In this document: piece after piece, positions 36,892 through 51,435 of the stretch | Numbering within the stretch: the stretch's first letter is position 1 | Layout: every line of letters starts with the position of its first letter | Source: Mogibacterium sp. | Lineage (GTDB): Bacteria > Bacillota > Clostridia > Peptostreptococcales > Anaerovoracaceae | Assembly (NCBI GenBank): GCA_017433975.1 | Contig: JAFRGD010000025.1 | Span: forward strand, 1 to 64,000 | Length of the DNA: 64,000 nucleotides | Direction: 5' to 3' | The notes under the pieces: generated by a model | Database searches by the model: none | The model's input: only the letters and a program-made list of their open reading frames with translations | Told to the model about the DNA's origin: nothing | Translations under genes and position numbers: made by a program

Positions 36892-39003
36892 TTACGCTGT
36901 TTTGTTATACATCGCGGCCTGGTAGCTGAAGTCTTCTCTCAGCGGATACGCCAGGTCGTCTTTTACCAAGATGTCGTACATTTCACCGTACGTTACCAGA
37001 TGCAGGCGGGTCTTACCGATCCCGTTCTCGACGTTGAGCTGCTGGTCTGCCGGGACGCCGACAATGTATACTTCTGTGAACCGTTCCTTGCTGGTTACGA
37101 GTGCGCCCTGTTCGATGCCTTCGTACCAATCGCAGAAGACCTGCCACCCGCCGACGCCGTCCGGCAGCGAAGCGATCACGTCCGGGTCGTTTCCGCAGAG
37201 CATCACCGCACGGTATTTGCCGGCTTTTAGCGGAGAAAGGTCGCTGACCTCGTTGAACGACAGGTCGATGACGACGTCCACGGACGGCTCGACGGCCGAG
37301 AGCGCGGAAATGTCCGAAATCTTGTTAAAACTGAGCAGGACCGTCTTCAGTTTGGTGCAGTCCTTGAGGCCGGAGAGGTCCGAAATGCCGCACCCGTCGG
37401 CGGCGATCCATTCGAGGTCCGCATGACCGGCGCAGAACGACAGATCGTCGAGCGGGATTCCCCGGATGTTCAGCCGTTTGAGAGCGGTGCACTTGCTGAG
37501 GAATGACACATCGTCGGCGTCAAGGCCGGTGCCCGCCAGATTGACAACCTTAAGCGACGAGTAATTCTGCGCGTTCAGCCAGTCGAGGTCGGTCATTCCG
37601 TCATTGCCGCTGACGTCGAGCTCCGTCAGGACGGTGCAGTCGCTGAACGTACTGAAGTCGGTCCGGTTGCAGTCCGCGAGGTACAGCTTGCTCAGGCTGA
37701 GAGCAGTCACCTGGGAGGCGTCCCCGCTCAGGTCGCAGCCGCTGAGGTTGAGCTCTGTCAGCCCTGGGAAGCCGGCGACGTCTGCCAGGTCGACCTTGGT
37801 AGAAGACGCGTTTAATATCTTGAGGGATTTTTTGTCATTCAACGCGGATAAGTCGCTCACGGCCGTTCCGCTGATGTTCACGTTCTGAATATTCTCAGCG
37901 GCATCAAGCGGTGAAAGGTCTGCCACGCCGGTCCCGCTCACGTTGAGCGTTTCGATTGGCGCCGCGTTCAGTACGCCCAGGTCCCGGAATGATGGGTCTC
38001 CGACGACGGATAGTTGCTTCAGGTTCATTCCGCTAAGAAAACTGTAATCGCTGATCCCGGTGCAATTGACGAACTCCAGTTTATGCACCTTGTCCGACTT
38101 GTAGTTCAGCGCGCCGAAGTCGCAGCCCGACAGGTCGCAGTCTTCGAATTGCATCGCGTAGAGTTCCTTGGACTGCGCAATTTTAGTCAGGTCGTCCTGC
38201 GTCACCGTTTGCTCCCGGACGCTAAAACTCTGGACCTTGGCAGAGACTTCGTCGCCCCAGGACATCGTTATCTTTTTGTTTGATTGTGAAAAAAGAAGAA
38301 CGATGAGCAGGACCGCGGCGAGGAGCACCCCGCCGATGATCTTTAACGCACCGGACTTTTTCTTTGGCGCCGGCGCGTCCGAAGCGGCGGCCTTGACCGG
38401 CTTCTCGCGGACTTTTTTCTCTCTTTTGGCCTTGCGTTCGACAGCTACAGGCGCTGCAACCGATGCGGAGACCGCCGGCGCCGGTGTCGGTACCGCCGGT
38501 GCAGGTGTTGCCGGTGCGGAAACCGCCGGGGCCTGCGCAGGCGCCGCCGCGTGCGGCATGCGGTCCTCCGGCTCCCTGCGGCACGGCTTGATGGCCGGGC
38601 ACATCTTGATCTTTCGGATGAACCCCTCCCACGTATCGTAATTGTACCGGATCACGCTCTGCTGCGCAGAGAGCTGCATCTCCAGCCCCGGCGACATCTC
38701 GGTCCGCTCTATGAGGACGGACAGAAACGGCTTGTTTTTGGACAGGGAGAAGTTGATCTCCCGCCGGCAGTTCGAGGACGCGACGGCGTTCGGCGTAATG
38801 AAAGCGATCACGGCCTCCGCGTTGCTGAGGTGCATCGCGATGTCCTCCGGCCACTCGCTGCCCGGCGCGATCCCGTCGTCGTACCAGAAGCGGTACCCGT
38901 CCGCCTCCAGTTCGCGCAGCACTTCAAAGACCGCATCCTTGTCCTTATGCGCGTAGCTGATGAAGATGTACTTCTCGTTTCCTTCGTATGCGGTTGGTTT
39001 CAT
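36892..39003 (-). CDS. Membrane-anchored TIR protein with leucine-rich repeats
   Basis: 703 residues; AGGAGTG precedes the ATG. An N-terminal TIR domain (~10-135) has KYIFISYAHKDKD, FWYDDGIAPGSEW and SNCRREI with the putative NADase Glu82. A Pro/Ala-rich linker (~150-185), a Lys/Arg-rich stretch (~188-220) and one TM segment (~219-238) follow. The remainder is leucine-rich: repeats such as LTELNLSGCDLSG, LSKLYLADCN, LTELDVSGNDG, LKRLNIRGI and DLSFNEVSDLSPL run to ~600. By the positive-inside rule the TIR is in the cytoplasm and the LRR outside, the same sidedness as an animal Toll-like receptor but in reverse chain order. It follows tldE by 30 bases. The last ~100 residues are not recognised. 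Confidence 0.87.
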   Translation of the reverse strand: MKPTAYEGNEKYIFISYAHKDKDAVFEVLRELEADGYRFWYDDGIAPGSEWPEDIAMHLSNAEAVIAFITPNAVASSNCRREINFSLSKNKPFLSVLIERTEMSPGLEMQLSAQQSVIRYNYDTWEGFIRKIKMCPAIKPCRREPEDRMPHAAAPAQAPAVSAPATPAPAVPTPAPAVSASVAAPVAVERKAKREKKVREKPVKAAASDAPAPKKKSGALKIIGGVLLAAVLLIVLLFSQSNKKITMSWGDEVSAKVQSFSVREQTVTQDDLTKIAQSKELYAMQFEDCDLSGCDFGALNYKSDKVHKLEFVNCTGISDYSFLSGMNLKQLSVVGDPSFRDLGVLNAAPIETLNVSGTGVADLSPLDAAENIQNVNISGTAVSDLSALNDKKSLKILNASSTKVDLADVAGFPGLTELNLSGCDLSGDASQVTALSLSKLYLADCNRTDFSTFSDCTVLTELDVSGNDGMTDLDWLNAQNYSSLKVVNLAGTGLDADDVSFLSKCTALKRLNIRGIPLDDLSFCAGHADLEWIAADGCGISDLSGLKDCTKLKTVLLSFNKISDISALSAVEPSVDVVIDLSFNEVSDLSPLKAGKYRAVMLCGNDPDVIASLPDGVGGWQVFCDWYEGIEQGALVTSKERFTEVYIVGVPADQQLNVENGIGKTRLHLVTYGEMYDILVKDDLAYPLREDFSYQAAMYNKTA

Positions 39004-44224: not shown

Positions 44225-44857
44225 ATGAAATTGTTCGGTTTCAAATCAAAAGACCGCGACGGCGGTCAGAAAAAAACGTCCGAGAGAGCGGGCGGCAACG
44301 AAGAACTTCTCCGCGTTCTCAAAGACGGTTCGTATTACGAGGCGGCCGCGGCGGCCGAAAAACTGGTCTCGCTCAAGGACTACAGCGGCATGAACCTCAT
44401 GATCACCCGTATGAACAACGACCGGATGGCGGTTCCGCTGAGCCGGATTCCGGACGAGGCGGTCGTCCTGCCGCTCATCCTCGCAATCAGCGAATACGCG
44501 ATTCTCAATCTGAACGTCTCCACCGGGAGCGAGCGGTTTTCCGCGCGGTCCGCGGCGGATATCTTCCGGAACCTCCTCTGGAACGTCCCGGACAAGGCGA
44601 TCGCGTACATCGCCGAGATTGCGGACTACCATTTCTTCTTCATGAAAGACGGCGAGCTGCTGTACACCGTGGGGCAGAAGGCCTTCGGCGCGCACCTCGA
44701 CCGGCCGGACCTGATCGCAAGCGCCGCCAGAGATGCGCTGGCCAAGGTGCCGGAGGAACAGCGCCGCGCATCGCTCGACCGCGAGAAGCCGAACTACCGG
44801 AAGGTCGACAACCGGGTCACCAAGCAGGAGATCCGGAACCTGCTCTACCAGAAATAA
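44225..44857 (+). CDS. Unknown conserved-looking protein
   Basis: 210 residues; GTAGGAG lies just before the ATG. I do not recognise it. The first ~25 residues are Lys/Asp/Gly-rich and probably disordered. The rest looks like an all-alpha soluble protein: regular hydrophobic spacing in YYEAAAAAEKLVSLKDYSG, AVVLPLILAISEYAILNLN, AADIFRNLLWNVPDKAIAYIAEIADYHF and a charged end RKVDNRVTKQEIRNLLYQK. No signal peptide or TM segment is evident. It is the third gene of a plus-strand operon that converges on the TIR/channel cassette, and the two share a terminator. Confidence 0.65.
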   Translation: MKLFGFKSKDRDGGQKKTSERAGGNEELLRVLKDGSYYEAAAAAEKLVSLKDYSGMNLMITRMNNDRMAVPLSRIPDEAVVLPLILAISEYAILNLNVSTGSERFSARSAADIFRNLLWNVPDKAIAYIAEIADYHFFFMKDGELLYTVGQKAFGAHLDRPDLIASAARDALAKVPEEQRRASLDREKPNYRKVDNRVTKQEIRNLLYQK

Positions 44858-44866
44858 CTCTGCCAG

Positions 44867-44909
44867 AATAAAACCAAAGGGGACTGCGCATGCAGTCCCC
44901 TCTTTTTCT
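44867..44909. terminator. Bidirectional terminator between the plus operon and the TIR/channel cassette
   Basis: GGGGACTGC (44879-44887), loop GCAT, GCAGTCCCC (44892-44900). On the plus strand TCTTTTTCTT follows; on the minus strand TTTGGTTTTATT follows. It closes both convergent units. Confidence 0.8.
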
Positions 44910-44969: not shown

Positions 44970-47033
44970 TTACTCTCCGCCGAGCCGCGCCAGGATCTCG
45001 TCGCGGTGCTCGCTTTCGAGGCCGGCGGCCTTTTGGGCGATGAAGTCGCGGCGGATCGTCTCGACCTGCCCCTCGCCCTGCGCGGCGATGAGGTCCAGCA
45101 GGGCGTCGCTTTCCTCGGTCCGTCCATAATACAACAGCGCGTACGCGTAGTTCATGTTGGTCAGGATGTTGTCCGGCTGCAGGCGGACCGCCGTTTCTCC
45201 GGCGATCACCGCCCGGGCCGGGTTTCTTTCGTGAATGAGTTCATAGTAGGACAGCCACGCGTAATACTGGGCCGTGTCGTAGGTCCCGAGATTTTGCGCG
45301 ACCGCCTCGTAAAGCGCGAGGCCCTGTTCAAAGAGTGCCCGGGAGCGCTCGTAATCCCCCGCCTTGAAGGCGTTCTCGCCGGTGTTCAGCAGGCTGAGCG
45401 CGTAAGACGCCTGGTCGGCTGCCGTGCCCGTCTGCCCGCTGACGTTGCCGTAGATGTCCGTCGCCTTGGTGTAGTATTCGTCCGCGCGGTCGTAATCGCC
45501 CTGGATGTTGAACGCCAGGCCGCGGTTGTTGTAAAGCTCCGCCAGCATCAGCTGGTACTCTTTGTTTTCGTCGTCCTTGGCCAGCTCCTCCGCCATCGCA
45601 ATCGACTCGGTATAGTACATGTCGGCTTCCGCAAAATTGCCCGAATCCATCAGGCAGGCGGCGAGCATGGACCCGGCCTGTACGACGCTCGCGCGGTTCA
45701 GGAGCGAGTCCGTCCGTTGTTGCAGCTGCTGATACAGTTCCAGCGCTTTCTTCAACCGCACCGACGCGTCCTGGAACATGCCGGAGCGGTACAGCAGAAT
45801 TCCGTAGTTGTACTCGATGAGCGCCTTGCTCTCGAGAACCTCGTCGGTCTCCTCCATCGGCTCGATCAGCGTGAGGCTCTTTTCGAAGAACTCCGCCGCC
45901 CGCGCCCCGTCCCCGAGGTTGACCGCGTTCGCGCCCGCGTTATAGTACGTCCGCGCGAAGATCAGCGGGTCCGGTTCCGCCATCGTCTCCTGTTTCGCGA
46001 TGGCTTCCGTATAAGTGGCGTCCGCTTCGTCGTAGCGGCCGGCCGCGGTCAGGAGGCTCGCCTTATTGTTGTACGCGGACGCGAGCCCCTGCTCTCCGCG
46101 TTCGTAATGTTTGTCCGCAAGCCCCTGGAACAGGCCGATCGCAGTCTCTTCCGACGCGAGCGCGTCGTCGTACATGCCGAGCACGCTCTCCGCGTTGGCC
46201 AGTTTTTCGTAGTTCGCAGCCGCCTCGTAAGTGGCCTTCTCTTTGTTCCGCGAAAGGCTCAGAATCTGGTTGATGTCTTCGGTGTTGTCGTGCAGGATGT
46301 CTTTGATCTTTCCGTAGGACCCCGGGACGTTGGTCAGGTGGTCCGGAAGGTCGTACGTCAGCTCCTTGAGGATCCGCATCGAAGCCTCTTCGCGCTGCAT
46401 GGCCGTGTCGCGGAACGCCCGCGCCTCCAGCATCAATCCGAGCGAGACCGCTCCGATCAGCAGGAAGGCTGTCGCTGCGGCGATCGCCTTCGACCGGAAC
46501 TGGCGGTTCTTGCGGAGGGAGTGCTCGCGCGCGAGGTCGCTCTCGTTACAACCGGTGATGCCCGCGATGACTTTGAGGAGCTCCGTGTCCGCCTTGGCCA
46601 TCATCTGCTTGACCGGGTTACCCGGGACGCGGATGTCCATCGTTCGCTCCGCGATGTCCGGAATCAGCTTGAGCGACGGCGGGAAAGACACCTCCGGGTC
46701 GCCGCTGATGAGCAGCGGATAGATGTGGTCCGCCCGGCCGAGTTCGATGAAGACCGCGACCTCACGGTCGACCCACGCCGAAGACGGCGCGTCCGTCGAG
46801 CAGATCACGACCAGGCAGTTGGTGGAGTGCAGCGCCTTGTCGATGGTCTCCGTCAGGATGCTGCTGACGGCGAGCTCTTCGGTATCGCGGAACGCCCGCT
46901 TAATATTCTCGTACCCCTCCGCCTGGATCGACTTCGGCAGTTTGTAGTTCTCGAGGTGGTTGAAGACCCGCTCGGTGATCGCGCTGTCCAGAGGCCGGTG
47001 GCGGTAGCTTATGAAGACGTCATAATCAAACAT
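44970..47033 (-). CDS. TIR-TM-TPR membrane protein (catalytic Glu present)
   Basis: 687 residues; GGAGGCGGAG precedes the ATG, and the start overlaps the upstream gene by 8 bases. The TIR domain (~1-140) begins YDVFISYRH, has FRDTEELAVSS, and contains SSAWVDREV with Glu91 in the place of the NADase Glu of known TIR enzymes. After basic LRKNRQFRSK comes one TM segment (~183-202). The rest (~210-680) is alpha-helical with tetratricopeptide repeats (YNNKASLLTAAGRYDEADATYTEAI, YNNRGLAFNIQGDYDRADEYYTKA in parts). The positive-inside rule puts the TIR in the cytoplasm and the repeats outside. It is the last gene of a four-gene overlapping operon with a TIR-like protein, a potassium channel and a Rossmann/RyR-like protein. 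Confidence 0.88.
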   Translation of the reverse strand: MFDYDVFISYRHRPLDSAITERVFNHLENYKLPKSIQAEGYENIKRAFRDTEELAVSSILTETIDKALHSTNCLVVICSTDAPSSAWVDREVAVFIELGRADHIYPLLISGDPEVSFPPSLKLIPDIAERTMDIRVPGNPVKQMMAKADTELLKVIAGITGCNESDLAREHSLRKNRQFRSKAIAAATAFLLIGAVSLGLMLEARAFRDTAMQREEASMRILKELTYDLPDHLTNVPGSYGKIKDILHDNTEDINQILSLSRNKEKATYEAAANYEKLANAESVLGMYDDALASEETAIGLFQGLADKHYERGEQGLASAYNNKASLLTAAGRYDEADATYTEAIAKQETMAEPDPLIFARTYYNAGANAVNLGDGARAAEFFEKSLTLIEPMEETDEVLESKALIEYNYGILLYRSGMFQDASVRLKKALELYQQLQQRTDSLLNRASVVQAGSMLAACLMDSGNFAEADMYYTESIAMAEELAKDDENKEYQLMLAELYNNRGLAFNIQGDYDRADEYYTKATDIYGNVSGQTGTAADQASYALSLLNTGENAFKAGDYERSRALFEQGLALYEAVAQNLGTYDTAQYYAWLSYYELIHERNPARAVIAGETAVRLQPDNILTNMNYAYALLYYGRTEESDALLDLIAAQGEGQVETIRRDFIAQKAAGLESEHRDEILARLGGE

Positions 47034-47880
47034 CTCCGCCTCCGTTCTCCCCGGACGGGGCCTCCAGAAGATATCCTAAACCGAGCTCGTCCAGCTCGTC
47101 GTGTGCTTTCTGATTCGCCTCTTCGATGTACGCCAGCGCCTCTTCGTTGCCCGCAAAGGCCGCCGGCAGTTCCTCCATGGTCCGCCGCGCGATCGCAACG
47201 CTGAGCTTGGTTTGCTTTTCCGCGATTTCGCCCTCCCGCCGGGCCACATAGCCCAGGTAGAGGAACAGCCCGGTCGCAAAGATGCAGACCGACGCGATGA
47301 CGGACACGATCGCCGTGATCGCCCGCCGGTGTCGCCGGCGGTGGCGCTGCTCGAGTTCGTCCGGGTGGATTCCGAGAATCGACGCGGTGACGCGGACGGT
47401 CTCGTACCGCAGCCGGTCTTTGTACTGGCTCGGCGTGTCCGCGCGGAGGTCCGAGGCGACCGGTTCGATCGTATCCTCGCGCTCCGCGATCGTCATGTCC
47501 GGACGGATGTAAGAGACGATTTTTTTCTCAACAAAACCCTCCGGGAACACGTCCATCGGTTCTCCCCGGAGGATGACTGCGATGATATTGCTGCCCGGTT
47601 TGTGCTCCCGGAAGTATTTCAGGCAGGTCGAAATCGCCGGGACGTTTTGCGTGTCCGGCGAGCAAAGCACGCCCAGGCAGCGGCTGTGCTCCAGAAGCTC
47701 CTCGGTCGCCTCGTCAAACGGCCGGCCGTCGGCTTCGATGTGGATGCGCCGATAGTCGATCGACGGGCCCGGAAGCGTTACTCCGGACGGGAGTTTGTAC
47801 TGGCGGATGCAATCGGCCAGTTTGACGGCTTCTGCCCGGTCCTCCGGCGCCGCGATGAAACAGATATCATACTCCTTCAC
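47026..47880 (-). CDS. TIR-like membrane protein with a lost catalytic Glu
   Basis: 284 residues from a GTG at 47880, chosen because GAGGAG lies 8 bases upstream; a TTG at 47901 is badly spaced. It aligns by eye with the TIR of the next gene: YDICFIA for YDVFISY, QYKLPSGV for NYKLPKSI, GVLCSPDTQNVPAISTCLKYF for VVICSTDAPSSAWVDREVAVF, AVILRGEPMDVFPEGF for PLLISGDPEVSFPPSL. The Trp and the Glu of SxxWxxxE are replaced by Ala and Cys (Cys86), so NADase activity is unlikely. A basic stretch EQRHRRRHRR precedes one TM segment (~187-211), with a ~70-residue tail outside. It overlaps its upstream neighbour by 14 bases and its downstream one by 8. Possibly a regulatory partner of the active TIR. Confidence 0.75.
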   Translation of the reverse strand: MKEYDICFIAAPEDRAEAVKLADCIRQYKLPSGVTLPGPSIDYRRIHIEADGRPFDEATEELLEHSRCLGVLCSPDTQNVPAISTCLKYFREHKPGSNIIAVILRGEPMDVFPEGFVEKKIVSYIRPDMTIAEREDTIEPVASDLRADTPSQYKDRLRYETVRVTASILGIHPDELEQRHRRRHRRAITAIVSVIASVCIFATGLFLYLGYVARREGEIAEKQTKLSVAIARRTMEELPAAFAGNEEALAYIEEANQKAHDELDELGLGYLLEAPSGENGGGDV

Positions 47881-49423
47881 GGCCGCTTCTCCTCTCCGCA
47901 ATGCTTCCCAACAGCTCCCACGCGTAGTCGTCTTTCTTTTGCTCCGCCTCGCTCAGCCGGTCATACGGGACCATGGACACGTGCAGCCGCAATGCGTCGT
48001 TGCGCTTGTCCGCGAGCCGCCAGTTGTACATCTGATAGAAGCGCAGCCAGCGCCGGTGCTCCATCTCTCGGCAGATTTCGCGCTGCGCCGGGTCCAGCCC
48101 GCAGAAGACGTCGTATGCCTGCTGACACTGTTCCGGCGTGATGTCCCGGACGTCCTCGCCGAGCAGCCACCGCACCTTGACCGGCAGGTGGTCCGCCGCC
48201 GCGATGTTCGACTGCCGGAAAAACTCGCCGAGGTCGCGCCAGGCGACCGGGTGGTCGGAATTCTCGTTATATAAATCGTTGATCAGGATCGCCATGTGAT
48301 TGACCGCGTCCTTCATGACGAACTCCGGCGTCAGGCTGTCCTCGCGGGAGCCGAAACTGTCGACCCCCGGAACTTCCGCGAAGAGCCGCACGTGAACCTT
48401 GCCCGGCACCGCAAACCACTGGCGGAGCTGGCTGTGGATCGTCAGGTTCTCCGGGTCCGTGTCCGCGCAGAGGATGATCCGGTCCGCCCGCGCGAGGAGG
48501 TCCGGCGCCGCCGTCCAGGCTTCGTCGTGGAAGATCAGGCTGTCCTCGTAAGGATGTCCCGGTGCGAGGGCCGCGACGATCTCCGGGTGCAGGGACGCGA
48601 AACCCTGCGCGCTGCCGAACACGTGGTATTCGAGCACGTGGGTCTTTTCAAAGATGTTCGTGAGAAGCGCTCTGGTGAGAAGCGCGCTGCCCGTCTCCTC
48701 GCAGCCGATGAAGATCACGCACCGCTCCTGCTCCCCGATCGGGTGCTTCTTCCAATAGCTCCGGCTCAGGACCTCGGACGGGCTGAAGAACTGGACGTTC
48801 TCCGGCAGGTTGTCCGCCGCGCAGTCGGTCAGGCTGTAGACCGGCACACCGAGGTCTCCAGCTCCGACCGCCGCCGCCGCGTTGTGCCAGCGGTCCTCGC
48901 CCGCATAAAAGAGCGAAAGGCCGTCCGGCTTCTCCCGGGTCCGGAGCAGCTCCGCCGGGTCCGCGTCGGTCCGCAGGACGCCCGGCTCCTTGCCCGGGTT
49001 GCCGTCGCCGCGCGGAAAGACCACGAGGCTGTCCGGGTCTTCCTGTTGGATGGCCTTTGCGAGCGCCGTAGAGTCCGCGTTCTCCTCGCTGAACCAGTAC
49101 CAGTTCCGGCTCCGCGCATGCCGCAGCCGGAACCGCGGCGCCTCCCCGCCGATCAGGCTCACGCCGAGGCTGATCAGCGCGGTCAACAGGCCGATGCTGC
49201 AGAGCGCAAAGACGAGGCCGAGGACTCTGCCGAAAGGCGTCACCGGCGCCATGTCTCCGTAGCCGACCGTCGTAATCGTAATGATCGAATACCAAAGCGC
49301 GTCCCAGATACTATGGATCGAGGACCCCGGCGCCTTGGACTCCACCGCGGTCAGGACGATCAGCAGCAGGACATACACGATCAGGCCGCATATGATGATT
49401 CGTATACTCTTCTTATTCTTCAA
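47867..49423 (-). CDS. Two-TM potassium channel protein with RyR-like C-terminus
   Basis: 518 residues. TM1 (~8-26), pore helix and filter TTVGYGD (51-57), TM2 (~66-92): the standard K+ channel pore. The cytoplasmic part (~95-430) resembles a Rossmann-type RCK/TrkA region in places (CVIFIGCEETGSALLTRALL, DRIILCADTDPENL). Around ~380-420 it has AWRDLGEFFRQSN, and it ends (~450-505) with MEHRRWLRFYQMYNW and VSMVPYDRLSEAEQKKDD, which match the bacterial RyR domain (PF02026-type) as I know it: EHxRW, then hxxxVPYDxLS. It should be a ligand-gated potassium channel in the plasma membrane. Its start overlaps the upstream stop by 4 bases (ATGA). Confidence 0.82.
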   Translation of the reverse strand: MKNKKSIRIIICGLIVYVLLLIVLTAVESKAPGSSIHSIWDALWYSIITITTVGYGDMAPVTPFGRVLGLVFALCSIGLLTALISLGVSLIGGEAPRFRLRHARSRNWYWFSEENADSTALAKAIQQEDPDSLVVFPRGDGNPGKEPGVLRTDADPAELLRTREKPDGLSLFYAGEDRWHNAAAAVGAGDLGVPVYSLTDCAADNLPENVQFFSPSEVLSRSYWKKHPIGEQERCVIFIGCEETGSALLTRALLTNIFEKTHVLEYHVFGSAQGFASLHPEIVAALAPGHPYEDSLIFHDEAWTAAPDLLARADRIILCADTDPENLTIHSQLRQWFAVPGKVHVRLFAEVPGVDSFGSREDSLTPEFVMKDAVNHMAILINDLYNENSDHPVAWRDLGEFFRQSNIAAADHLPVKVRWLLGEDVRDITPEQCQQAYDVFCGLDPAQREICREMEHRRWLRFYQMYNWRLADKRNDALRLHVSMVPYDRLSEAEQKKDDYAWELLGSIAERRSGREGV

Positions 49424-51297
49424 TTGGTCGCGCCTTTCTCTGCCCGGAGGAGTTCCGGCAACGCCAGAACGTTGTTAATATCTACCTGTTTGTAGTCGAT
49501 GACCCGCCCGGTGACCTCGTGCTCGCGCGCGGACAGCTCGTCCAGCGCGTCCCACGGAATCAGGCAGGCGTGGGTGCGTGCGATCGTATCCTTTGTGATC
49601 CGGATGTCGCACGGGAGCCCCTGCTCCTTGCGGCGCTTCCATTCGGCCGCGTTCGCTTCAAAGACTTCCTGCGGCATGGTCGAGTACCCCATGACGAAGT
49701 GGAAGGCGTTCCAGCGGAGGTGTTCGGTCTTACCGAGCACTTCCAGCATCTCCGGACTCGGGTTCCACTCTCCGGCGGTCATCTGCTCGCGGCTGATGCC
49801 CGAAGCCTTGAGGAACGCCGGCGAGAAGTCCGCGGAGCACCGCGACGACATCTTGCTGAACGTGTCGCAGGCGACCCATTTGTCCCAGTTGCTCCGGTCG
49901 GATGTGTCGTACATCGCGTTCAGCAGGATCGCTGCCCGGTCCGCCCGCTCCGCCGACAGGAGGTCGAGCGTGTAGATGTCCGTGCGGATGATCGGGCTGC
50001 CGACCGTCTCCTGATACCGGACGCCGTTCTTACCGCACTGGATCACGCAGATGTGCTCCGCGTTCCGGCGCTTCAGGTACAACATCAGGCTGTTCGAAAT
50101 CTCCCGGTTGGTGACCTCGTTCCCGGTGCAGACCACGATCATCTTGAGCGTCTTGATCCGCTTCGCGACATAGTCGTAAAACTCACGGCTGCCGCCGCTG
50201 GCCGTAAAGCTCTTGATATCATACTGTTTGAGCATCTCCGGGCTGACCGCGTAGATGTAGCCGGACTCCTCCGGAAACCGCGGTGAAAAGACCGCCGCGC
50301 GGAAATGGCTCCCCTCGAACTGGCCGTTCATCACGAGCTGCTTGAGCGCGGCCTGGCCGTGGCTGCCGAAGCCGACGACGACGCACTCGAAGTCCTCCGT
50401 CGCGCGCCCGTTCTCGTCAAAATGAATGAAATCCCACGGCGGGCAGGTGCGGATCAGCGCCCGCGCCGAGAGCTCACTCTCGTCATACACGTGCACGTAG
50501 CCAAAGCCATACCCGTCCTTGGACACCTGCAGCATGGACGTGATGATGTCTTCTGCGCCCGGTAACGTCAGGCGGGTATTCTCCGGCGGAACGTTAAGCT
50601 CCGACAGCCCGCTCTTGAGCTTGAGCGCGTAGAACAGGTCTTCGTCGGCGTCTTCGCCCAGCGCGTAAACCGTCAGTTTGCGACGGTCCGCGTGGAGCCT
50701 GCGGAGGACCTTTGGATCCGAATTGACCGCCTCCGACCCCGTGACCACGGACATCCCCTGGTTGTTCAGGTCGCCGATCAGTGCGGAGTCCGCGTTCTCA
50801 GCGATGAACACGACCGCGTTCCCGCCCTGCCTGACGCACTCCCGGCCGACCGCGATGCTGTTCTCGTTGATTCCGTAGATCAATGTGAGGTCGCCGCGCC
50901 GCGACAGCAGCAGCCGCAGATACCGGAGCGCCTCCGCGCCGAGCGTGAACATGACCGCGCTCGCCATCGAGTAGAACGCGAGCAGGTGCAGAATCCAGAA
51001 GCAGATCAGGCCGGTCATCGTCGACACGAAGGAGGACGCCGCGATAGACGCGTAGTCGTTGATGCCGACGAACATCTTGAAGACGCAGAAGAGCGTCCGG
51101 ATGATGCTGAGCGGGATGTTCCCCGTGACCTCCGCAAAGCCCGTCCCGTAGATCAGCAGCCCACCGACCAGCGAGATGAGCATGCAGCCGGTCGTCAGCT
51201 TCGCCGAGAAGGACGGCTTGAGCGCCAGGTTGAGCACCATGGCGAGCAACAGTGCGGCTGACAGGACAGCGACGGAGATGACCGAGATACTGGACAT
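49420..51297 (-). CDS. Membrane protein with Rossmann-like regions and RyR-like C-terminus
   Basis: 625 residues; AAAGGAGG precedes the ATG. About four TM segments lie in ~1-130. No TVGYGD filter is present. Two Rossmann-type starts follow: DLTLIYGINENSIAVGRE (~137) and FECVVVGFGSHGQAALKQL (~305), as in TrkA-N modules. The C-terminal part has DTFSKMSSRCSADF and TEHLRWNAFHFVMGYS, then ARTHACLIPWDALDELS, which fits a RyR-type domain with an insertion. It is the first gene of the four-gene cassette, directly behind the promoter at 51372-51400. It probably binds a nucleotide and may act as a regulatory subunit of the neighbouring channel. Function not known. Confidence 0.75.
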   Translation of the reverse strand: MSSISVISVAVLSAALLLAMVLNLALKPSFSAKLTTGCMLISLVGGLLIYGTGFAEVTGNIPLSIIRTLFCVFKMFVGINDYASIAASSFVSTMTGLICFWILHLLAFYSMASAVMFTLGAEALRYLRLLLSRRGDLTLIYGINENSIAVGRECVRQGGNAVVFIAENADSALIGDLNNQGMSVVTGSEAVNSDPKVLRRLHADRRKLTVYALGEDADEDLFYALKLKSGLSELNVPPENTRLTLPGAEDIITSMLQVSKDGYGFGYVHVYDESELSARALIRTCPPWDFIHFDENGRATEDFECVVVGFGSHGQAALKQLVMNGQFEGSHFRAAVFSPRFPEESGYIYAVSPEMLKQYDIKSFTASGGSREFYDYVAKRIKTLKMIVVCTGNEVTNREISNSLMLYLKRRNAEHICVIQCGKNGVRYQETVGSPIIRTDIYTLDLLSAERADRAAILLNAMYDTSDRSNWDKWVACDTFSKMSSRCSADFSPAFLKASGISREQMTAGEWNPSPEMLEVLGKTEHLRWNAFHFVMGYSTMPQEVFEANAAEWKRRKEQGLPCDIRITKDTIARTHACLIPWDALDELSAREHEVTGRVIDYKQVDINNVLALPELLRAEKGATN

Positions 51298-51323
51298 TGG
51301 AGTCCTCCTTTATTCCATGAATT

Positions 51324-51342
51324 CTCGTGCAGGGTGCACGAG
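51324..51342 (-). promoter_or_regulatory. Perfect hairpin/operator in the leader of the TIR/channel cassette
   Basis: CTCGTGCA (51324-51331), three bases, TGCACGAG (51335-51342). It lies between the -10 box and the ribosome site of the first cassette gene, so it could be an operator or an RNA hairpin. Confidence 0.6.
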
Positions 51343-51371
51343 CCGATAGATGTGCAGACTTTTACAAATAT

Positions 51372-51400
51372 ACTATACTACTCCCGTGCGGAATGTTCAA
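51372..51400 (-). promoter_or_regulatory. Sigma-A type promoter of the TIR/channel cassette
   Basis: Minus strand: -35 TTGAAC (51395-51400), 17-base spacer, -10 TATAGT (51372-51377). It begins right after the terminator of the MFS gene, so the cassette is an independent transcription unit. Confidence 0.75.
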
Positions 51401-51401
51401 T

Positions 51402-51435
51402 CAAAAAGACACCGCCGCGCAGGACGCGCGGCGGT
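51402..51435 (-). terminator. Terminator of the MerR-MFS operon
   Basis: ACCGCCGCGC (51411-51420), loop AGGAC, GCGCGGCGGT (51426-51435), then TCTTTTTG on the minus strand. Confidence 0.85.

Follow-up and report, generated by a model that had tools for sequence, protein, structure and literature searches.

We describe a four-gene operon (the cassette) of a rumen bacterium, Mogibacterium sp., which with moderate confidence we take to encode a TIR signalling module that is anchored in the membrane and acts through an ion channel: the product of a TIR domain would be sensed by a potassium (K+) channel carrying RCK and RyR domains. The analysis rests on sequence throughout. The operon lies in a stretch of 64,000 nucleotides (the window; GenBank assembly GCA_017433975.1, contig JAFRGD010000025.1) from contig 25 of a 2.26-Mb draft genome, and the nearest relatives in our searches are genomes from rumen and gut metagenomes that bear the label Mogibacterium sp. 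or uncultured Clostridiales. Genes 1 to 4 run head to tail on the minus strand from 51297 to 44970, with successive overlaps of 4, 14 and 8 bases, behind a single promoter-like site and between two terminators (Table 1). These overlaps, the promoter and the bracketing terminators had been proposed in an earlier reading of the letters alone (the sequence-only reading); re-calling of the gene coordinates returned the overlaps exactly, a sigma-70-like site stands at the promoter position and both hairpins fold, confirming that the initial observation was correct and the operon genuine. An AAGGAGG ribosome site directly precedes the ATG of gene 1. Gene 3 has an alternative TTG start at 47901 that would give 291 amino acids (aa), and the alignment of relatives favours the GTG start.

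The chain set out next is our inference as regards TIR catalysis, the identity of the ligand, which way the channel is gated, the pairing of gene 1 with gene 2 in one channel, and what the operon is for. A cue would reach the gene 4 protein, in which a TIR domain, a transmembrane (TM) helix and TPRs follow one another; its TIR domain, which may work in complex with the inactive TIR of gene 3, would turn nicotinamide adenine dinucleotide (NAD+) into an ADP-ribose-type signal, which might be a cyclic ADP-ribose isomer; this signal would be bound by the RyR domains that the gene 2 gating ring and the paralogous gene 1 subunit carry; and the resulting change in K+ flux would stop or protect the cell. 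At the flux step the membrane would move towards the K+ equilibrium potential and the K+ content of the cell would be altered. Simple depolarisation, as supposed in the sequence-only reading, is not to be assumed, because the opening of a K+-selective channel brings the membrane potential closer to that of K+ equilibrium and lets K+ escape. What carries the chain are the domains, the conserved operon, the channel paralogy, the conserved RyR pocket residues and the general linkage of RyR to TIR.

Gene 2 encodes a K+ channel with an RyR domain at its C-terminus. A pore of two TM helices and a P-loop, with the TVGYGD filter at residues 52-57 (Ion_trans_2 in Pfam, 5e-15), is followed by tandem RCK domains at about 107-374 and the RyR domain at about 444-500; the filter is kept in all gene 2 orthologues. 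The structural model, with a predicted local distance difference test (pLDDT) score of 71, has a KcsA-like pore and then two RCK domains that are predicted to assemble into a ring: its nearest solved folds in the PDB are GsuK (E 6e-7) and the gating ring of CASTOR (Z 15), and in alignments to CASTOR, GsuK, Slo1 and TrkA Z is 11-15. The window's gene 2 taken alone scores 19.6 bits against the Pfam RyR model (PF02026; E 1e-3), below the cut-off of 27.4, and the same model matches 10 of 10 gene 2 orthologues (best 4e-8), several of them above the gathering score (33.3 bits, for example). When the family profile is used, the C-terminus matches a repeat domain of RyR1 (structure 6uhi, E 3e-15), and an RyR profile built from outside the cassette finds gene 2 at E 1e-14. 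The description of gene 2 as a TVGYGD channel ending in an RyR-like domain, made from the letters alone, therefore holds.

The residues of this RyR domain would suit an ADP-ribose-type ligand. Phage RyR-domain proteins bind 2'/3' cyclic ADP-ribose (2'/3'cADPR), and one cleaves them (2026 preprint, PMC13232231). In RyDEP, H75 and D117 carry out catalysis, W78 steadies the adenine of the ligand and H100 touches its phosphates (PMC13232231). Matched by position and spacing, not by alignment to the RyDEP sequence, H456, W459, H481 and D498 of gene 2 correspond to RyDEP H75, W78, H100 and D117, with identical offsets of 3, 25 and 42. Gene 1 keeps H526, W529 and H576.

The association of RyR with TIR extends well beyond the cassette. 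Of 394 genomes in the order, 41 hold RyR, and among the 41 RyR loci that are not part of the cassette 13 have a TIR_2 or DUF4062 gene no more than 5 kb away. In this count, made on draft genomes of one order, 0.24 would be expected given how many such genes each genome has (Poisson P of about 1e-18); related genomes are not independent, yet ten genera are represented. The partners at these loci are TIR-Sel1/TPR proteins, TIR-TM-WD40 proteins, TIR proteins with many TM helices and DUF4062-NACHT proteins.

Three kinds of RyR locus deserve separate mention. In two genomes of one genus, a TIR-TM-WD40 gene and a TM-RyR gene adjoin a type III-A CRISPR operon (Cas10, Csm2-5 and Cas6). Elsewhere RyR genes are paired with DUF4062-NACHT/STAND genes, which suggests that DUF4062 fills the TIR role there. 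There are also small stand-alone RyR proteins of 92-99 aa, scoring up to 124 bits against Pfam RyR, several of which are encoded next to larger TM-RyR genes and to genes for TIR or DUF4062 proteins; these may serve the host by degrading or buffering the signal, as phage RyDEP does.

Genes 3 and 4 encode a pair of TIR-TM proteins. Gene 4 has a TIR domain with E91, a TM helix at 184-202 and a TPR region at about 260-660 (TPR_12, 1e-20); its TIR domain passes the cut-offs of both TIR_2 (1e-7) and ThsB_TIR (1.9e-6; 28.6 bits against 21.2), and E91, in the motif WVDREV, is invariant in the nine orthologues. Gene 3 consists of a TIR-like domain, a TM helix at about 191-209 and a short C-terminal tail. 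Paralogous to the N-terminal part of gene 4 (24-27% identity), it has no Glu at the catalytic column in any of 10 sequences and is, to judge by the alignment, a catalytically dead TIR. The sequence-only reading had assigned both proteins in this way, including the presence and absence of the catalytic Glu. In each, the TIR-like domain is followed by one TM helix. Positive charges precede the helix in gene 3, so its N-terminal TIR-like domain should be cytoplasmic and, with one TM helix, its C-terminal part outside. In gene 4 the flanks are balanced, and the TPR part would lie outside if the TIR is to reach NAD+.

Gene 1 is, by profile comparison, a diverged paralogue of the gene 2 channel. It has N-terminal TM helices, a KMFVGIND loop (residues 74-81), Rossmann/RCK-like regions at about 136-212 and 303-420 and an RyR-like region at about 515-588, and residues 82-585 align with gene 2 in hhalign (probability 92.5, E 5e-7). 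TrkA_N matches at 8e-5, just under the cut-off. The Pfam RyR model itself gave no gene 1 match; a profile made only from RyR sequences outside the cassette matches the C-terminus at E 1e-8, the best decoy being at 3.7. Hence RyR domains at both C-termini, as first read, are supported by sequence profiles, and the account of gene 1 as a Rossmann/RyR-like membrane protein was right about its C-terminus and incomplete in missing the kinship with gene 2. Where the filter would lie, gene 1 has FVGIND instead of the canonical TVGYGD, and KMFVGIND is invariant in all nine N-termini compared. For RCK rings of two subunits, TM1088A/B provides a precedent (PMC4380455).

The four genes belong together. 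At all nine loci found with gene 1, genes 1, 2, 3 and 4 keep their order and strand, with identities of 61-65%, 41-45%, 54-59% and 56-59%, respectively; one of these loci (L005) ends within gene 4, and in another (L009) gene 1 is cut by the contig end. In a related genus (g83), genes 1 and 4, searched for separately in 47 genomes, occurred in the same 11. The expectation of the sequence-only reading that the genes would be neighbours elsewhere was thus borne out in the genomes that carry them. In most relatives the cassette occupies an insertion-deletion site between glgA and an aminotransferase gene, where other genomes have histidine kinase, EAL/GGDEF or amino-acid transport genes. One genome (G134) has glgA on one side of the cassette only; in another (G413), as in this window, the cassette lies elsewhere; and a third (G359) has the junction without the cassette, which follows further along the same contig. 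The flanks vary among genomes while the gene set is constant, so the genes stayed together as their surroundings changed. No second copy was found in a search of the window's genome.

What the operon is for is less clear than what it contains, and it may serve defence, envelope stress or cell-surface sensing. If the core chain holds, we would put antiphage defence at about an even chance. A defence-island setting is unsupported, given the metabolic flanks in the window and the glgA/aminotransferase site in most relatives, and nothing shows the defence or cell-death circuit that the sequence-only reading had proposed. Carriage by plasmids or phages was also considered and rejected: there was no plasmid match, and phage matches covered only the generic pore region. 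The core of that earlier proposal, a TIR-made nucleotide acting on the channel through RyR, is contradicted by neither of the two tests set for it and gains from the adjacency of the genes, the RyR profiles, the RyR-TIR linkage in ten genera and the binding of 2'/3'cADPR by phage RyR proteins (PMC13232231). Its defence or cell-death purpose finds no support, and it has to be amended in that gene 1 is itself channel-related and that most relatives have a fifth component.

Several findings weigh against the signalling chain. The gene 2 C-terminal region is modelled at a pLDDT of about 43-80 and the gene 1 model is poor (53 overall, 32-57 in the C-terminal region), so low a confidence that the models argue neither for nor against an RyR fold in the two proteins. 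Gene 1 has no Asp at the position of D117, which RyDEP needs for catalysis. Comparison of the gene 1 and gene 2 N-terminal profiles gave no significant alignment (probability 0.4 percent), and the suggestion that KMFVGIND is a pore filter comes from its position and invariance only. RyR genes with the same His occur at two loci (L040 and L038) without a TIR nearby; hence RyR does not imply TIR. RyR channels free of TIR stand beside trkH and trkA, and this channel type must therefore have other uses.

The last point leads to an alternative that we regard as unlikely, namely that the operon is a controller of K+ or osmotic homeostasis, in which the RCK and RyR domains would sense NAD+, ADP or ATP and the TIR proteins would be scaffolds or sensors with no special messenger. 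ADP and NAD+ activate GsuK, the closest channel of solved structure (PMC3510474); TrkA, according to PDB titles, also answers to common nucleotides. Solo RyR K+ channels that share about 35% identity with gene 2 lie beside trkH/trkA in several genomes, and also occur in genomes without a TIR_2 match. However, these sister channels keep the first His and the Trp while H481 is replaced by Asn or Ser and D498 by His, the two residues that the TIR-linked channels retain. The contrast would be expected if the TIR-linked channels retained a pocket for an ADP-ribose signal, and could alternatively reflect drift between lineages. The conservation of E91 in gene 4 and the independent RyR-TIR linkage in ten genera also speak against homeostasis and are consistent with the signalling chain.

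Comparison of relatives revealed a component of the operon that cannot be seen from the window alone. Seven of the nine relative loci have one or two extra genes, which lie downstream of gene 4 or separate gene 2 from gene 3 and in most cases overlap the start of gene 3. Their products are secreted proteins 855-1070 aa long, with low-complexity linkers and, as judged by eye, signal peptides; Pfam gave no informative match for them. In most relatives, then, the operon has a fifth, secreted component. The gene is absent from the operon of this window and from L002 and L009, so that the surface protein is not essential; the window's genome has about five paralogues in tandem on two other contigs (C11 and C23). 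These proteins, the outward C-terminal part that the positive-inside rule gives for gene 3 and the metabolic neighbours fixed in most relatives would suit an envelope or cell-contact sensor, in which the C-termini of genes 3 and 4 face outward and sense a surface protein or a neighbouring cell in a developmental or community role rather than immunity. We consider this quite unlikely: the rule leaves the topology of gene 4 unsettled, and the surface protein is dispensable. The signalling chain could be extended, tentatively and with some doubt on our part, to a Toll-like-receptor topology, with an outward TPR sensor, a TM helix, a cytoplasmic TIR with its dead partner, an ADP-ribose-type messenger and a two-subunit RyR-gated K+ channel, the secreted protein serving as ligand or co-receptor in relatives.

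Finally, that the RyR domains form an off-switch, destroying or buffering what the TIR makes, in the manner of phage RyDEP and its homologues, and coupling this to the K+ state, we hold to be very improbable: H456 and D498, the counterparts of the catalytic pair, are present in all complete cassette orthologues but one, but only the founding RyDEP was an enzyme among the homologues tested, despite high sequence conservation (PMC13232231), gene 1 lacks the matching Asp, and fusion to a gating ring argues for sensing.

The window and its genome hold further genes of related design. Six kilobases from the cassette, a 703-aa protein combines a TIR domain (TIR_2, 2e-20), a Lys-rich juxtamembrane stretch, one TM helix and leucine-rich repeats (LRR_4, 1e-23), which is the domain set of a Toll-like receptor in reversed order. 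Several more TIR-TM proteins in the genome have varied C-terminal parts and no RyR gene nearby. Around the cassette itself are MFS, MerR-type regulator, oxidoreductase and TldD/E-like genes (named by eye from the sequence), and the terminator after gene 4 is also usable on the plus strand by a convergent 210-aa gene (44225-44857).

Table 1. Positions of the operon, its signals and related features; plain numbers refer to the window, those after an L number to the locus named (aa, amino acids).
Feature	Position	Strand	Remarks
Intrinsic terminator, upstream	51411..51435	-	Closes upstream MFS transporter gene; hairpin, folding z-score -4.4
Promoter	51372..51400	-	Sigma-70-like TTGAAC-17-TATAGT, upstream of gene 1; 9/12 consensus matches
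Gene 1 (P0001)	49420..51297	-	ATG start, 625 aa
Gene 2 (P0002)	47867..49423	-	TTG start, 518 aa
Gene 3 (P0003)	47026..47880	-	GTG start, 284 aa
Gene 4 (P0004)	44970..47033	-	ATG start, 687 aa
Intrinsic terminator, 3' of gene 4	44876..44903	-	Hairpin, folding z-score -5.2
TIR-TM-LRR protein	36892-39003	-	
Further TIR-TM proteins, same genome	L095 10351-13458; L096 4227-5657; L097 8295-10525; L098 7164-8141		
Solo RyR K+ channels	L058 9837-14282; L062 7217-11607; L084 8744-13129		Beside trkH and trkA
RyR/TIR-WD40 pair	L093 6998-11952; L094 8444-13395		By type III-A CRISPR
RyR with DUF4062-NACHT/STAND	L075 6538-11385; L074 4823-11143; L077 4560-15651		
Small RyR proteins	L059 8647-8925; L076 1791-2090; L077 15370-15651; L090 9990-10268; L091 10931-11215; L092 10113-10394		
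Secreted repetitive-linker proteins	L003 11429-14095; L005 11429-16691; L007 7317-9884		In or next to the operon

The cassette shares parts with several known systems. With Thoeris it has in common a TIR that has the catalytic Glu and whose gene neighbours that of an effector with a possible sensor for an ADP-ribose signal. However, the candidate effector here is an RyR/RCK K+ channel, and the TIR protein is membrane-anchored, with TPRs and a dead TIR partner. Searches of Pfam, NCBIfam and PADLOC gave no SIR2-SLOG or Macro/TM ThsA match in genes 1-3, and because no ThsA-type effector was found we do not file the cassette as Thoeris, although gene 4 passes the ThsB_TIR cut-off. Gene 2 shares the KcsA-like pore and tandem RCK gating ring with GsuK, which is nucleotide-gated, CASTOR/DMI1 and Slo1, whereas the cassette has two divergent channel-like subunits; to our knowledge none of these channels has an RyR domain or a TIR partner. 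RyDEP belongs to the same RyR R12 family (PF02026), and gene 2 keeps its four ligand residues at equal spacing, but RyDEP serves the phage in evasion, by cleaving or sequestering the signal, and the cassette's domain is fused to a TIR-linked host channel. The likeness to Cam1, Cap1 and Csx23 of type III CRISPR is one of logic only, a nucleotide messenger acting on a membrane effector (PMC10808066); they sense cyclic oligoadenylate rather than a TIR product through RyR, and their pores are non-homologous. The animal ryanodine receptor, long linked to cyclic ADP-ribose, has the RyR repeat domain in common with gene 2 but is a Ca2+ release channel of unrelated overall architecture. In the literature searched, from which one probable source on RyR domains in bacteria was missing, we found no account of an operon that joins TIR, RyR and a K+ channel, in line with the sequence-only reading, which knew of no system with exactly this gene set. 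Burroughs et al. 2015 (NAR) is said to be the comparative-genomic source for nucleotide-centred systems.

Direct action of cyclic ADP-ribose on ryanodine receptors is a long-standing question. If the proposed chain is true, the operon would offer a small, purifiable system in which an RyR domain gates an ion channel upon a TIR product, and an ion channel would join the known outputs of bacterial TIR signalling, in keeping with the presence in phages of RyR-domain proteins by which such signals are destroyed or sequestered. The pathway in its Toll-like topology, if real, would be a prokaryotic counterpart of cyclic ADP-ribose/RyR signalling. As RyR-TIR pairs recur in ten other genera, the answer would apply well beyond this genome.

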